A stretch of DNA of 44,460 nucleotides from positions 1-44,460 of the forward strand of contig NZ_FOPS01000013.1 of assembly GCF_900113545.1 (NCBI RefSeq). The letters are read 5' to 3'. Shown piece by piece: positions 37,727 through 44,460 of this stretch (within the stretch, counting starts at the first letter, position 1; each line of letters begins with the position of its first letter). Both the position numbers and the translations under genes were made by a program. This DNA is from Neisseria elongata subsp. elongata. GTDB lineage: Bacteria > Pseudomonadota > Gammaproteobacteria > Burkholderiales > Neisseriaceae. Under the pieces are notes generated by a model that saw nothing but the letters and a program-made list of their open reading frames with translations, was not told where the DNA came from and did no database searches.

Positions 37727-38911
37727 ATGATAGTAGAAGTAAATGTTCCCGTATTCGCCGAAAGTATTACAGAAGGCACCCTGCTTGCCTGGCATAAAAA
37801 AATCGGCGAAGCCGTTGCCCGCGACGAAATTTTAGTCGATATCGAAACAGACAAAGTCGTATTGGAAGTACCTGCCCCGCAAGCCGGTGTCTTGGTTGAA
37901 GTCATCGTAAACGAAGGCGATACCGTTACCTCGCAACAGGTTTTGGCCAAAATTGATACCGAAGCCGCAGCCGTTTCTGCAGCTCCCGCCCAAGCTGCGC
38001 CTGCCGCCGAAGCGGCCGCGCCTGCCGCCGCTTCCAATGCACAGGCCGGTGTCGCCATGCCTGCCGCAGCCAAACTGGCTGCTGAAAAAGGCGTGGATGT
38101 CGGCAGTATCCAAGGCTCGGGCCGCGACGGCCGCGTATTGAAAGAAGACGTGCAAAACGCTTCTGCTGCTCCGAAAGCCGCCGCCCCCGCCGCTCCGATT
38201 CCTGTGGGCGCACGTCCTGAAGAACGCGTGCCGATGAGCCGCCTGCGTGCACGCGTGGCCGAACGCCTGCTGGCTTCGCAACAGGAAAACGCCATCCTGA
38301 CTACTTTCAACGAAGTCAACATGAAACCGATCATGGACTTGCGTGCGAAATATAAAGAAAAATTCGAGAAAGAACACGGTGTCAAACTGGGCTTCATGTC
38401 TTTCTTCGTTAAAGCAGCCGTAGCCGCGCTGAAAAAATATCCGGTGGTCAATGCCTCTGTTGATGGCAAAGATATCGTGTATCACGGTTACTTCGATATC
38501 GGTATCGCCATCGGCAGCCCGCGCGGCCTGGTTGTGCCGATTCTGCGCGATGCCGATCAAATGAGCATTGCCGACATCGAACAAGCCATCGTCGATTACG
38601 CGAAAAAAGCCAAAGACGGCAAAATCGCCATCGAAGACCTGACCGGCGGCACCTTCAGCATCACCAACGGCGGCACTTTCGGCTCCATGATGTCCACCCC
38701 GATTATCAACCCGCCGCAATCTGCCATTTTGGGTATGCACGCGACCAAAGAGCGCGCCGTGGTAGAAAACGGCCAAGTCGTTGTCCGCCCGATGATGTAT
38801 TTGGCACTCTCTTACGACCACCGCATCATCGACGGCCGCGAAGCCGTGCTGACTTTGGTAACCATCAAAGACCTGTTGGAAGACCCTGCACGCCTGTTGC
38901 TGGATTTGTAA
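37727..38911 (+). CDS. sucB: Dihydrolipoyllysine succinyltransferase (E2)
   Basis: Core of the oxoglutarate dehydrogenase complex. 394 residues: lipoyl domain with the lipoylated Lys in ETDKVVLEV (about 43), an Ala/Pro-rich linker (80-110), the E3-binding domain ([17 protein letters not shown]), a second linker, and the catalytic domain ending in [13 protein letters not shown] (His and Asp). AGGAGTAAAAA precedes the ATG. Between sucA and lpdA as expected. Confidence 0.97.
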
Positions 38912-38916
38912 GCGTT

Positions 38917-38954
38917 TTTCAGACGGCCTGTTGTTACAGACAGGCCGTCTGAAA
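38917..38954 (+). terminator. First DUS pair between sucB and lpdA
   Basis: TTTCAGACGGCCTGT at 38917-38931 pairs with ACAGGCCGTCTGAAA at 38940-38954, 15-bp stem, 8-base loop, 5 bases after the sucB stop; followed by TTT. Confidence 0.7.
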
Positions 38955-38997
38955 TTTACCGTCCAAGCCATACAGGGCATATAAGGCATATATCGCC

Positions 38998-39034
38998 TTT
39001 CAGACGGCCTCAACCTGAAAGAGGCCGTCTGAAA
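38998..39034 (+). terminator. Second DUS pair between sucB and lpdA
   Basis: TTTCAGACGGCCTC at 38998-39011 pairs with GAGGCCGTCTGAAA at 39021-39034 over 9 bases. Together with 38917-38954 this puts four DUS copies in a 169-base gap. Confidence 0.65.
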
Positions 39035-39080
39035 ACCATGTTTCAACGCAAATAACAATATTTTTAAAGGATATAGAACA

Positions 39081-40514
39081 ATGTCTCAATACGATGTCGC
39101 CGTAATCGGCGCAGGCCCGGGCGGGTATGTTGCCGCCATCCGCGCCGCACAACTGGGTTTTAAAACCGTCTGCATCGATGCGGGCGTCAATAAAGCGGGC
39201 GACGCGCCCGCGCTGGGCGGAACCTGCCTGAACGTCGGCTGCATTCCTTCCAAAGCCCTGTTGCAGTCGAGCGAACATTTCCACGCCGCGCAACATGATT
39301 TTGCCGAACACGGCATTACCGTCGGCGACGTTAAATTCGATGCGGCGAAAATGATTGCGCGCAAAGACGCCATCGTTACCAAACTCACCGGCGGCATTGC
39401 CTTCTTATTTCAAAAAAACAAAGTGGCCAGCCTGCACGGCAAAGGTTCGTTCAAAGGCAAAAACGGCGATGCCTACCAAATCGAAGTCGATAACAAAGGC
39501 GAAAAAACCGTTATCGAAGCCAAACACGTCATCGTAGCGACCGGTTCCGTGCCGCGTCCGCTGCCGCAGATTGCCATCGACAATGTAAACGTATTGGACA
39601 ACGAAGGCGCATTGAACCTGACCGAAGTGCCTGCCAAACTCGGCGTCATCGGTTCGGGTGTGATCGGTTTGGAAATGGGTTCGGTGTGGAACCGCGTCGG
39701 TTCGCAAGTCACCATCCTTGAAGCCATGCCGACCTTCCTTGCCGCCGCCGACCAGCAAATCGCCAAAGAAGCCTTTAAATACTTCACCAAAGAGCAGGGC
39801 TTGAACATCGAACTGGGCGTGAAAATCGGCGACATCAAATCTGAAGGCAAAGGCGTATCCGTTGCCTACCAAACTGCCGCAGGCGAAGCCAAAACCGAAG
39901 TATTCGACAAACTCATCGTCGCCATCGGCCGTATTCCGAATACTAAAGGTCTGAATGCCGAAGCCGTCGGCTTGGAAAAAGACGAGCGTGGCTTTATCAA
40001 AGTGGACGGCGAATGCCGCACCAACCTGCCTAATGTCTGGGCAATCGGCGACGTGGTTCGCGGCCCGATGCTGGCGCACAAAGCCAGCGACGAAGGCGTT
40101 GCTGTTGCCGAGCGCATCGCCGGTCAGAAACCGCATATCGATTTCAACAGCGTACCGTTCGTGATTTATACCGACCCTGAAATCGCCTGGGTCGGCAAAA
40201 CCGAAGAGCAGCTCAAAGCCGAAGGCGTGGAATACAAAAAAGGCACTTCCGGCTTCGGCGCAAACGGCCGCGCGTTGGCAATGGGTAAGGCAAAAGGTAC
40301 GGTCAAAGTGTTGGCGGATGCCAAAACCGACCGCATCTTGGGCGTACACATGATCGGCCCGGTTGTCAGCGAATTGGTTACCGAAGGCGTCACTGCGCTC
40401 GAATTCTTCGCCAGCAGCGAAGACATCGCCCGCATCATCCATGCCCACCCGACCTTGTCCGAAGTGGTGCATGAAGCCGCATTGGCTGCCGACAAACGTG
40501 CATTGCACGGTTAA
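39081..40514 (+). CDS. lpdA: Dihydrolipoyl dehydrogenase (E3)
   Basis: FAD enzyme that reoxidises lipoamide for the oxoglutarate dehydrogenase complex. 477 residues: FAD motif [17 protein letters not shown], redox disulfide in [16 protein letters not shown] motif [16 protein letters not shown] motif near AIGDVV, and the C-terminal active-site His in [26 protein letters not shown] precedes the ATG. No lipoyl domain is fused to the N-terminus, so it fits the OGDH-linked E3. The next genes are not sucCD. Confidence 0.97.
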
Positions 40515-40530
40515 GGCCGTCTGAAAGCAG

Positions 40531-40561
40531 CAGGCCGTCTGAAAGACTTTCAGACGGCCTG
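40531..40561 (+). terminator. DUS-pair terminator after lpdA
   Basis: CAGGCCGTCTGAAAG at 40531-40545 and CTTTCAGACGGCCTG at 40547-40561 are separated by one base, a near-palindrome. A third DUS (40514-40525) lies directly before it. Followed by TTTGCCTTTT. Confidence 0.82.
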
Positions 40562-40604
40562 TTTGCCTTTTGCCACAGTTAATGGCGTGTAAAACGCCGT
40601 ATGC

Positions 40605-40633
40605 TTGCCAATAAGGTCTCCCAAACCTATAAT
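40605..40633 (+). promoter_or_regulatory. Near-consensus sigma-70 promoter upstream of the rtcB cassette
   Basis: TTGCCA (-35, 40605-40610), a 17-base spacer, and TATAAT (-10, 40628-40633). This is the best promoter match in the window. It would start transcription near 40640 and give a leader of about 220 bases before rtcB. Confidence 0.75.
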
Positions 40634-40674
40634 CCGCCTCTTTCATCCACCCACTGCAAAGAAAGGAGCACATC

Positions 40675-40725
40675 ATGACCCAAACCATCACCTGCTCAAT
40701 CAAACTTTGCAGCCCGGTCGTTTAG
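40675..40725 (+). CDS. 16-codon leader ORF or gene remnant before rtcB
   Basis: ATG ACC CAA ... TAG, peptide MTQTITCSIKLCSPVV, with an ideal AAAGGAG at 40662-40668 and 6-base spacing. A one-base insertion after the sixth codon would open a longer frame (LLNQTLQPGRLGIHLF...) that runs to a DUS stop, so it may be the start of a decayed gene. Alternatively it is a leader peptide controlling rtcB. I cannot tell which from sequence alone. Confidence 0.4.
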   Translation: MTQTITCSIKLCSPVV

Positions 40726-40861
40726 GCATACACCTTTTCTATTGCGGTAAATCAGCCGCATCCCTTCCGCCCGCATCGGGCTGCTTTCCATCATTCCGCG
40801 CAACAGCGGCCGTCTGAAAAAACAGGCGACGTTTTTTGCGCCCGCAAGAAAGTAGCACAAC

Positions 40862-41998
40862 ATGGGCAATCCCATTTCAAACAACAACATTACCATCATC
40901 GCCGATTCCGACACATGGATAGAGGGGCGAGCCGTCCAACAACTCGAAACCACCGCCAAACTGCCGCAGATGCTGCGTGTGGCCGGAATGCCCGACCTGC
41001 ATCCCGGACGCGGTTATCCCGTGGGGGCGGCATTTTTCAGCGTCGGCCGCTTTTATCCCGCGCTCATCGGCAACGACATCGGCTGCGGCATGGCCCTGTG
41101 GCAGACCGACCTTCCTGCCGCCAAAGCCAAACCCGCCAAACTGGCCAGGCAGCTCGGCAGCATAGATGCACCGCCGGACGTAGGCTGGCAGGCACGGATT
41201 GACGAAATCCTGCCGAACCATCCTTTTCAGACGGCCTTAGGCACCATCGGCGGCGGCAACCACTTTGCCGAACTGCAAACAGTCGATACCGTCTACCACG
41301 CCGGCCTGCTGCCCGCAGGTTTCCAAACCGACCGCCTGCAACTGCTGGTACACAGCGGTTCGCGCGGCTTGGGGCAGGAAATACTGCGCCGCCATGTCGA
41401 ACGGTTCGGCCATAACGGCTTGGCCGAAAGCAGCGCCGATGCGGCAGATTATCTGGTGGAACACCAATCCGCCCTCGACTTTGCCCGCGCCAACCGCATA
41501 CTGATTGCCGAAAGAATGCTGGCGCAGTGGCACGGCGGCGGAGCGTGTCTGCTCGATGTACACCACAACTTCCTGCAACAGGCCGAAATCGGCGGCCAAA
41601 CCGGCTGGCTGCACCGCAAAGGCGCAACCCCTTCCGACTGCGGCATGGTCGTGATACCCGGTTCGCGCGGCGATTACAGCTACCTGGTCAAACCCGCTGC
41701 CGACTGCACCCATTCCCTAAACTCATTGGCACACGGCGCAGGGCGGAAATGGCAGCGCGGCGAATGCAAAGGCCGCCTGTCGCACAAATATTCTGCCGAC
41801 AGCCTGCGCCGTACCGCCTTCGGCAGCGTCGTGGTGTGCGAAGACAAAGCTTTGATTTTTGAAGAAGCCCCGCAGGCATATAAAAGCATAGACGGCATCA
41901 TTGCCGCCATGGCGAATGCCGGACTCATCGAACCCGTGGCGCGGCTGAAACCCGTATTGACTTATAAAACCGGCGGCAACTGCGGAGGTGCAGCATGA
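40862..41998 (+). CDS. rtcB: RtcB-family RNA ligase (PrfH-linked type)
   Basis: GTP and Mn-dependent ligase joining RNA 2',3'-cyclic phosphate or 3'-phosphate ends to 5'-OH ends. 378 residues with all active-site features: GNDIGCGM (Asp72, Cys75), GGGNHF (His134), VHSGSRGLG, LLDVHHN, HRKGAT, and the GMP-acceptor His in AHGAGRKW (about 291). It is shorter than the roughly 408-residue RtcB1. Linked prfH at 42685 places it in the RtcB2/PrfH group, which repairs 16S rRNA cut in the decoding centre. An AG-DUS lies inside (41226-41237). Its stop overlaps the next gene (ATGA). Confidence 0.93.
   Translation: MGNPISNNNITIIADSDTWIEGRAVQQLETTAKLPQMLRVAGMPDLHPGRGYPVGAAFFSVGRFYPALIGNDIGCGMALWQTDLPAAKAKPAKLARQLGSIDAPPDVGWQARIDEILPNHPFQTALGTIGGGNHFAELQTVDTVYHAGLLPAGFQTDRLQLLVHSGSRGLGQEILRRHVERFGHNGLAESSADAADYLVEHQSALDFARANRILIAERMLAQWHGGGACLLDVHHNFLQQAEIGGQTGWLHRKGATPSDCGMVVIPGSRGDYSYLVKPAADCTHSLNSLAHGAGRKWQRGECKGRLSHKYSADSLRRTAFGSVVVCEDKALIFEEAPQAYKSIDGIIAAMANAGLIEPVARLKPVLTYKTGGNCGGAA
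41226..41237 (-). repeat. AG-DUS inside rtcB
   Basis: TTCAGACGGCCT, coding PFQTALG. Confidence 0.92.
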
Positions 41999-42681
41999 AA
42001 ATCATCAGTAAGTTTAAAGATTTTTACGACCACAAAGTAGCCAAATACGGCATAGACCCCGTATTGGTGTTCGACCGCCGCCATCCGTCCGATGCCGAAA
42101 TCCTGCACAGTCTGCCCAAGCCGCCGGCCGAGTGGGAAAAAGAATACGGCGCGTGCGCGGCCGTATCAGTGCTGTATGTGGGCAGATTGCGCGTGTACCT
42201 GTTCAACACGGGCGCGTGTGTTTATACCTCGTTTGACGTGGCCGAAGTTTTCCGCCGCACGCAGCCGCATTTCAGCCGTGATGTTTGCCCGAAAATCCGT
42301 TTCAATGACGGCAGCGAATATTATCTGCCGAAATATGCAGACTACTTCTTGAGCGCGGACGAGAAATTCCAGGCCGAAACCATGTTCCAGCGGCAGGTCG
42401 GTGAAAATATGCCGTCCCTACACGCCGTACCGCTGCTGCTGGTGTGTGACACTGAATTGTGCATCCGGCGGGAAGGGATATTTGCGTATTACGCCAACCC
42501 GCAACTTTCCGCACTCGGTATCTACATCGATCCCGATATCGTGTGGCAGAACATCAGCGAATACCTGTCGCAGCTTAAAAGCGAGTCCGAAACCAGCCCG
42601 AACGTGCCCGACAAAGCCAAAATCGGCAACAAGGGATTTGACGAAAAATATTCCTTCCGCCCGAAGATGAAAAGGAAATAA
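41995..42681 (+). CDS. Unknown protein coupled to rtcB and prfH
   Basis: 228 residues, no signal peptide, no clear membrane segment. It starts with MKIISKFKDFYDHKVAKYGIDPVLVFDRR-like sequence (first 28 residues), followed by a strand-rich region with LYVGRLRVYLF, and ends with a basic tail, KGFDEKYSFRPKMKRK. The N- and C-terminal patterns (KIISKFKDxYD and KGFDxKYSFR) remind me of a widespread family of uncharacterised proteins seen in many bacteria and phages. The ATG overlaps the rtcB stop by 4 bases and prfH follows after 3 bases, so all three are probably co-translated. No catalytic motif is recognisable. A role in ribosome repair or its control is inference from context. Confidence 0.85.
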   Translation: MKIISKFKDFYDHKVAKYGIDPVLVFDRRHPSDAEILHSLPKPPAEWEKEYGACAAVSVLYVGRLRVYLFNTGACVYTSFDVAEVFRRTQPHFSRDVCPKIRFNDGSEYYLPKYADYFLSADEKFQAETMFQRQVGENMPSLHAVPLLLVCDTELCIRREGIFAYYANPQLSALGIYIDPDIVWQNISEYLSQLKSESETSPNVPDKAKIGNKGFDEKYSFRPKMKRK

Positions 42682-42684
42682 ATC

Positions 42685-43302
42685 ATGATTTATCTGCAAA
42701 TTTCTACCGCCCAAGGGCCTGCCGAATGCCGCATCTTCGCCCGCTTCGTCCTGAAAAAACTGCTGGCCGAAGCCGAAGCGCGGAATGTGAAGGCAGAGAT
42801 TGCCGGCGAAACGGCTGATAAATACGGCATCCTGTCGGCCGTCCTGATGCTGGAGGGAGCGGCTGCCGACACGTTGGCGCAAAGCTGGCAGGGCACGCTG
42901 CAATGGGTGTGTGCCAGCCCCGTCCGCCCGAAACATCCGCGTAAAAACTGGTATATCGGCATATTCCGCCTGCCGGAAAAACCCGAAATGCCGTCTGAAA
43001 GCGAAATCGAGTTTCAAACCTGCCGTTCGGGCGGCAAAGGCGGGCAGCACGTCAATAAAACAGAGTCGGCCGTCCGCGCCACCCACAAAGCCAGCGGTAT
43101 TTCCGTGCGGGTGGAAAGCGGACGCAGCCAGCATGCCAACAAAAAACGTGCGTTGGAACTTCTGACACACAAACTGGCCGAACATCAAACCGCACAAAAT
43201 GCCGACTATGCCAAACAGCAGCACAGCGGTTTGTATCAGGTAGAGCGCGGTAATCCGAAACGTGTATTCGAAGGACCGGGCTTCCGCGAACGGCACGCCT
43301 GA
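42685..43302 (+). CDS. prfH: Peptide chain release factor homologue PrfH
   Basis: 205 residues with the universal GGQ motif in CRSGGKGGQHVNKTESAVRATH (GGQ at 119-121), which hydrolyses peptidyl-tRNA, and a short C-terminal tail (PKRVFEGPGF). It lacks the stop-codon-reading domain 2 of RF1/RF2; its N-terminal domain (GPAECRIFARFVLKKLL) is the PrfH-specific part thought to sense a damaged decoding centre. AAGGAA at 42672-42677 supports the ATG. An AT-DUS (42988-42999) is embedded, coding MPSE. Known partner of RtcB in rescue and repair of nicked ribosomes. Confidence 0.93.
   Translation: MIYLQISTAQGPAECRIFARFVLKKLLAEAEARNVKAEIAGETADKYGILSAVLMLEGAAADTLAQSWQGTLQWVCASPVRPKHPRKNWYIGIFRLPEKPEMPSESEIEFQTCRSGGKGGQHVNKTESAVRATHKASGISVRVESGRSQHANKKRALELLTHKLAEHQTAQNADYAKQQHSGLYQVERGNPKRVFEGPGFRERHA
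42988..42999 (+). repeat. AT-DUS inside prfH
   Basis: ATGCCGTCTGAA, coding MPSE just before the GGQ domain. Confidence 0.92.
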
Positions 43303-43322
43303 TTATGCCGCCGGTACGTTAA

Positions 43323-43361
43323 AGGCCGTCTGAAAACTGATTTCAAGTTTTCAGACGGCCT
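43323..43361. terminator. DUS-pair terminator between prfH and the TonB receptor
   Basis: AGGCCGTCTGAAAACT at 43323-43338 and AGTTTTCAGACGGCCT at 43346-43361, 16-bp stem, 7-base loop, between convergent genes, flanked by A and T. Confidence 0.9.
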
Positions 43362-43380
43362 AATTTATCTTATCTTGCGG

Positions 43381-44460
43381 CTAGAATTTCCCCTTGATAC
43401 CGAAGGTAATCGTCCTGCCCGGGCCGGGGACGGGGGTGCTGGATATCGGGTCTAGGTAATAGCGGTTGGCAAGGTTGGTAACGCCGAAATTCAAGTCTAT
43501 ATGTTTCCCTATGCGGTAGCGGGCATAGGCATCGAGCAGGGTGGCGGCGTGCCAGCTATAAGGCTTGCCGCTGCTGTCGTACACGTCGCCCACGCCCAAA
43601 GCCATCATGCGGGTGTAGTTTTTCCGATCCGCCTTGCTGTGATGGATGGCGCGCATGCCCAGTTCCAGTTTTTCATTAAAGAAGCGTGTACCGACATCGA
43701 GGGTATGCCGGGATCGAGACGTAGGGAAGTGGGGGAAGGTTTGCCGCTGAGGATGGAGTTGGCATCAGAACTGCCGCCCGTGCCGTCCGCCGTCGCGCCT
43801 ATGGGCGAGAGGGTGCGGTAGTCGCGGCCTAAGAATTGGCGCAAGTCGTTTTTCTGCGCCACGGTGTTGCCGGAAAATTCGGTTTTGACTTCGATTCCCC
43901 AGTTTTTGCCTTCGGGGATGATGTCGGAAGGTTCGATGGTGCGGATGGACATCGCGCCGCCGACGCCCGATTTCACGCCGCGCGTCATGGCGGGGCTTTT
44001 TTCCACCGCGATGCTGCGGAACAGGGCGGGATCGAGGTAGTTGCGGTCGCCCACGCCGTAGTTGTTGAGCCAGACATCAACCGTTTGCTCCGTACCGTCC
44101 AGCGTTACGGGGATACGGCCCTTGCCGGTGATGCCGCGTATATTGGGCGTAATCGCGCCGCCGGCGGTGCGGGTGTTCATGTTGTACACGCCGTTTAGGC
44201 CTTTGAGCACGTCGCCGGCGGATTGGACGCGGTAGCGTTCGAGGTATTCTTTGCCGACGTAGGCGTTGGAGACGTTTTTGTAATACACGTCGTCCGTGCC
44301 TTTTTGGTCGGCACTGCGTTTGCCGGTAACGGTCAGCGCTTCGATGTTGCTGCTTTCGGTTACTTCGGCGGGCGGGTTGTCGGCGGCATAGGCGGGCAGG
44401 GCAATGAGGATGCCTGCGAGGCTGACGGCGAGGATTTTCGGCCGTGAGGGGAATTTGGAT
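43381..44460 (-). pseudogene. TonB-dependent receptor, internally deleted and frameshifted (5' end outside window)
   Basis: Reading leftward from 44460: signal peptide (KILAVSLAGILIALPAYAA), a TonB-box-like EALTVTGKR, then a full plug domain (SAGDVLKGLNGVYN, GKGRIPVTLDGTEQTVDVW, RGVKSGVGGAMSIRT). Soon after LRQFLGRDYRTLSPIGATADG the frame runs into a different one that resumes with a barrel strand (SRHTLDVGTRFFNEKLELG) and the last strands (DLNFGVTNLANRYYLD, ITFGIKGKF, terminal Phe). Only about 350 codons remain from a receptor that usually has 700-950, so most of the barrel is missing, and plug and C-terminus are out of frame near 43690-43745. Ligand unknown; resembles Neisseria Tdf-type receptors. 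Confidence 0.8.

Follow-up and report, generated by a model that had tools for sequence, protein, structure and literature searches.

Why should a third gene stand between the two genes of a ribosome rescue-and-repair pair in Neisseria elongata subsp. elongata? The window analysed here, the whole 44,460-nucleotide stretch NZ_FOPS01000013.1 (contig 14 of 23 in a genome of 2,360,727 bases), carries on its + strand rtcB2 (40862..41998), a middle gene encoding 228 amino acids (41995..42681) and prfH (42685..43302). An earlier note, made from the sequence alone, had proposed that the middle gene is a third part of an extended repair system or, alternatively, that the ligase/release-factor pair has been joined with a phage-derived factor. 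Our preferred answer, to which we assign a probability of roughly 0.45, is that the locus is an RtcB2-PrfH rescue-and-repair operon with an optional third gene, of the phage family PHROG 4243, serving as a repair accessory. The comparisons below show a real and recurrent third gene of a phage family, optional and with a fast-changing core, for which a part in repair is plausible.

The outer genes and the slot between them

The three + strand frames are as tightly packed as first described: the start of the middle gene shares the 4-base ATGA with the rtcB stop, and 3 bases separate the middle gene from prfH. A GGAGG read directly within the rtcB end (41984..41988, + strand) probably serves the middle gene as its ribosome-binding site. 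The rtcB2 product (378 amino acids; PF01139, E 6.7e-71) passes TIGR03073, the PrfH-linked subfamily of the RtcB RNA ligases, with 541 bits against a cut-off of 272, in agreement with its initial assignment as an RtcB-type ligase. Its motifs DIGCG (residue 72), GGNHF (131), HSGSRG (164), HHNF (234) and AHGAGR (290), which we take to hold the catalytic residues, have counterparts that align in the solved RtcB 2epg. The prfH product, peptide chain release factor H (205 amino acids), passes TIGR03072 (release_prfH) with 238 bits against a cut-off of 167, over positions 1-198 of the 200 in the profile. Its residues 1-202 align with a solved PrfH (7sa4 chain 8), and RF1 chains (2b3t) align from their residue 112; the missing part is therefore N-terminal domain 1. 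Thus, of the release factor first described as having a GGQ and lacking a stop-codon-reading domain, the GGQ stands (at residue 119), but the domain that is lacking is another one.

These profile and motif matches mark the two outer genes as a standard RtcB2-PrfH pair. Excerpts of the published work report that such a pair (PrfH being also called RFH), encoded by the operon of E. coli ATCC25922, shields the cell from colicin E3 (PMC9223846). The window has the same two outer genes and families, as far as these excerpts describe them (PMC9223846, PMC1586002). In the E. coli pair the two genes are close or overlapping, whereas in the window a phage-family third gene lies between them (excerpts of PMC9223846 and PMC1586002). 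Direct adjacency of rtcB and prfH is absent from the window, where 690 bp separate the two BLAST matches and the middle gene occupies the interval.

A phage-family protein with constant ends and a variable core

The middle protein matches PHROG 4243 at E 6.1e-13 in two stretches, the better of which covers residues 178-225. PHROG 4243 is a phage family of unknown function with 63 clusters in IMG/VR, so that the original description of the protein as unrecognised holds for its function but not for its family, and the alternative of a pair joined with a phage-derived factor fits. Neither NCBIfam (no family) nor Pfam (nothing at the curated cut-off) places the protein, and the search against PDB sequences was likewise without a usable hit. 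Of the relatives of the middle gene, the best 80 of 93 were kept; L156 and L157 have no open frame of the gene. The alignment used to characterize the family (A4) holds 64 proteins, the window's included and the fragment L172 left out, and 64/64 match PHROG 4243 at E <= 0.001. A choline kinase identity (Pfam, E 0.088) was rejected because the 64 members together hit 14 scattered models, this one included, and no model was hit by more than one member.

Conservation is uneven along the protein. Between the window's genome (G000) and the locus used for comparison (G039), RtcB is 90% and PrfH 93% identical, and the middle protein falls into three parts. Its constant N end, residues 1-60 (MKIISKFKDFYDH...DPVLVFDRR; 41995..42174, + strand), is 90% identical and contains D9 and D12, invariant in 64/64 proteins; its constant C end, residues 168-228 (ending GFDEKYSFRPKMKRK; 42496..42678, + strand), is 95% identical and contains F215, F221 and R222, likewise invariant in 64/64. 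The variable core between them, residues 61-167 (42175..42495, + strand), is 38% identical. At the DNA level, the ends are 92% identical (302/330) and the core 60% (206/345; P 7e-23). The end motifs that we define here for the family, KDYYD...DR and GFDxKxSFR, take the form KDFYD...DR and GFDEKYSFR in the window's protein. The end windows of the middle gene have low nonsynonymous divergence (dN 0.04-0.06), with a synonymous divergence (dS) of 0.33-0.37 against 0.49-1.42 in the core windows. Synonymous divergence is thus raised in the core as well, although rtcB and prfH also have single high windows (up to 0.72 and 1.17, respectively). We infer that the core was probably replaced by a diverged version rather than altered by point selection alone.

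A structure model built with 21 alignment rows was poor (mean predicted local distance difference test score, pLDDT, 62); with 64 rows, the mean pLDDT was 76.8 and the two ends were modelled with confidence. A Foldseek search with the model found nothing in the PDB at E 0.001. Among viral models, five matches passed this threshold, all of them uncharacterised phage proteins, and three of the five come from phages in which tblastn located a family member. We also considered whether the protein is a small enzyme of ATP-grasp-like fold, modifying RNA ends or a ribosomal component. ATP-grasp enzymes have conserved nucleotide- and metal-binding Lys, Glu and Asn, unlike residues 61-167 of this family, where no Lys, Glu or Asn consensus rises over the 55% filter in A4, and we judge such an enzyme very improbable.

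Distribution and history of the middle gene

The earlier note had raised the prospect that the middle gene would be found near rtcB-prfH in this genome only; instead, five genomes from four genera carry it in that slot. Among 83 genomes surveyed from the same bacterial family, seven matched the gene, five of them with a full-length copy, one with a remnant and one weakly. All five full-length copies (G000, G003, G039, G066 and G082) stand between rtcB and prfH, and the three-gene order, recurring in four genomes besides the window's own, is beyond chance. Four of these five copies have an uninterrupted frame. Two weak places, in G065 (E 1.7e-4) and a second one in G082 (E 2.4e-4), show 24% identity and three stops and were set aside as chance or remote matches.

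PrfH was found above the cut-off in 35 of the 83 genomes, and the gap between rtcB and prfH was covered in 34 of the 35 (G059 was left out). In this survey of rtcB-prfH loci, of the kind first suggested with the sequence, the middle gene was present at 5 of the 34 family loci; at 27 the rtcB and prfH matches are at most 84 bp apart, and two loci have longer gaps without it. At one of the 27 close-spaced loci (G015), the RtcB match is limited to residues 275-375. The two longer gaps are 740 bp in G001 (L060 4890-5628) and 358 bp in G057 (L063); the former holds an opposite-strand frame of 137 amino acids. In a search reaching beyond the family, PrfH was detected at E 1e-45 in 14 of 398 genomes, one of them the window's own; the middle gene is missing from all of the remaining 13 loci (0/13), with rtcB adjoining in 10 and no rtcB within the 1.5-kb flank in 3. 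A search with alignment A1 against the phylum sample matched 1 of 398 genomes, the window's own, and the PHROG profile matched 3 of 399 genomes in the order sample, namely the window's own, G012 and G306. The middle gene is an optional member of the operon.

Relatives also occur away from this slot. In G012, two match pieces mark a remnant, a 61-residue open frame that joins both conserved ends without the core (L051 6313-6498) and may be either a relic or a functional small protein. In Fusobacterium vincentii, two family copies lie in tandem, the second frameshifted (L045 5228-6730), among genes that we take to be cobalamin-type; the record is filed as a plasmid and is 2.1 Mb long. G306, from another family of the order, has a distant copy (L052 1145-5804) whose neighbours are presumably sirtuin-like and phosphoesterase-like genes.

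The five full-length copies form one clade (0.99), sister to the Fusobacterium vincentii copy (0.96). In a tree of rtcB and prfH from 38 loci, carriers of the middle gene fall in three branches with non-carriers in between, a pattern that one gain and several losses, or later transfers, would fit. Between G066 and G082, the middle-gene ends are 94% identical (321/340 bases) and rtcB 86% (953/1104; P 2e-5), which suggests that the middle gene also moves alone. A phage-type gene may have been captured once in this bacterial family, then lost repeatedly and sometimes moved between genera. The word GCCGTCTGAA, presumably the uptake word, occurs 12 times on the two strands of 38001-44460. Between rtcB and prfH, a single AGGCAGCCTGAA word is present in G065 and two in its close relative G066, where they bracket the middle gene.

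The middle gene could also be a passenger: a single ancient insertion, of little or no use to its host, that has persisted through inheritance and through exchange among relatives capable of natural transformation. Its patchy presence, the in-frame stop in the G003 copy, the shrunken remnant in G012 and the uptake words, one at the empty junction of G065 and two around the gene in G066, all agree with such an origin. However, the ends are conserved across genera with low dN, for which selection is needed, and most full-length copies have kept their frame open. We therefore consider a mere passenger improbable.

Phage relatives and RNA-repair genes

In the phage L079, an RtcB gene (PF01139, E 3e-29) begins one base past the homologue, whose start is overlapped by a preceding NADAR gene. 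In the phage L078, the open frame that begins 54 bases beyond the homologue matches RNA ligase weakly (21 bits against a cut-off of 27). Whole-record tests covered 50 of the 63 phage clusters, the 13 with the shortest records being left out, and found RtcB in 4, RNA ligase in 21, PNKP in 8, RlaP in 17 and cREC in 16. Proximity was judged against positions placed at random within each record, without counting a short second RtcB match in G871. Among the 35 records that hold any of these five families, 7 have a repair gene within 2 kb of the homologue (1.90 expected, P 0.0017) and 14 within 10 kb (7.83 expected, P 0.011). We take this phage link to RNA repair as a hint, not proof. The remaining 28 of the 35 records have none of the five families within 2 kb and most members of PHROG 4243 are phage genes, so that an occurrence mostly at unrelated loci, the other outcome that the earlier note had thought damaging to its proposal, is partly borne out. 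The Fusobacterium pair and the G012 remnant, both off rtcB-prfH, point the same way.

Repair genes are not alone near the phage homologue: six clusters (L131, L139, L158, L151, L092 and L097) have a DHFR gene at most 2.3 kb from it. In the flanks covered, DHFR was counted near in 6 cases and far in 0, with the near genes as seeds; such a count is circular for rare families because the seeds came partly from near genes.

A conflict gene acting on its own is another possible, though not our favoured, explanation. Such a gene would share the operon for expression only and would inhibit or sense a phage or toxin component, with the core as its recognition surface. PHROG 4243 is mostly phage-borne, its phage copies lie in regions rich in accessory genes and the core changes fast, all of which suit this explanation, as do the Fusobacterium pair, which has neither rtcB nor prfH nearby, and the G082 copy, intact next to a broken prfH. 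Nothing would require an independent gene to keep to one slot, as all five full-length family copies do, although a single inherited insertion would yield the same pattern.

Weighing a role in repair

The case for a repair accessory rests, within the bacterial family, on the single slot and single clade of the full-length copies, the ATGA overlap, the conserved ends and their confident models. Among the phages, it rests on the RtcB adjacency in L079 and on the 7 of 35 records with a repair gene within 2 kb. Several findings weigh against it. The middle gene is absent from 29 of 34 family prfH loci and from 13 of 13 outside the family, and the G003 copy is interrupted. The G082 middle gene is intact although prfH there looks broken (L050 7053-7588), with matches in two frames covering residues 1-153 and 177-203. 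No rtcB or prfH match was found in the 13-kb stretch around the G012 remnant or in the 12.7-kb stretch around the Fusobacterium vincentii pair. The fold matches, to the PDB and to viral models, indicate no function. In the phages, RtcB, RNA ligase and PNKP alone give 3 of 25 records within 2 kb (1.05 expected, P 0.08, not significant) and no significant enrichment at 5 or 10 kb either. RlaP and cREC joined the proximity test only after being noticed nearby, and the random-position null ignores the clustering of accessory genes. Finally, 11 other relatives of the L078 ligase have no adjacent homologue, so that 1 of 12 loci has one within the flank, its own; the L079 RtcB has no relative besides itself for such a comparison.

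If the middle protein is a repair accessory, its two conserved ends would most probably come together as a single compact binding site for an unchanging partner, be it RtcB, PrfH, an RNA end or the damaged ribosome, and the core would face a changing one, for example the nuclease that attacks. PrfH would then free the stalled ribosome and RtcB would reseal the cut, as in the two-gene system. A bolder version, which we regard as doubtful, makes the phage family a third subunit of repair, its ends docking on the ribosome or the repair enzymes and its core swapped as a block against different nucleases, with phages guarding their own translation by means of this family. Should the middle protein act in repair, a large unstudied phage family would be tied to ribosome damage, and a recognition or processing step would be added to a system described as two genes. 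Should it be a passenger, the case would still illustrate how this junction gathers conflict genes.

Relation to known systems

Accessory genes near RFH-RtcB have been described, among them genes for a TPR protein, a Pol-beta nucleotidyltransferase (NTase), a zinc-ribbon (ZnR) protein and a charged helical protein (excerpts of PMC6514570). The window is likewise a case of an extra gene accreted on the same core pair, as far as the excerpts describe these accessories (PMC6514570). Unlike those accessories, the middle protein matches no TPR, Pol-beta NTase or zinc-ribbon Pfam model up to E 1, and the three are absent among the 14 Pfam models matched by any of the 64 members. The charged helical protein, which has no detectable homologues, can be compared here by its description only, and the excerpted text names no accessory that is a PHROG 4243 protein (PMC6514570). 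The known members of PHROG 4243 are phage genes, whereas the window's copy sits in a bacterial repair operon. Jumbo phages carry RNA-repair sets that include RNA ligases, RtcB, PNK-HAD, cRec and RlaP, in an account that, in the parts available, names no protein of the PHROG 4243 type (PMC7824862). Some members of PHROG 4243 are encoded close to these families, a link that is statistical and weak. Searches of the literature found no paper containing 'PHROG 4243', and none on the middle gene among work on PrfH, RtcB and RNA repair, judged from titles, abstract starts and passages.

Sequence downstream of the operon

Beyond prfH, what we take to be a TonB-receptor-like protein is split over two frames on the - strand (43381-43656 and 43605-44459) and runs past the window end at 44460; being in two frames, it may be broken.
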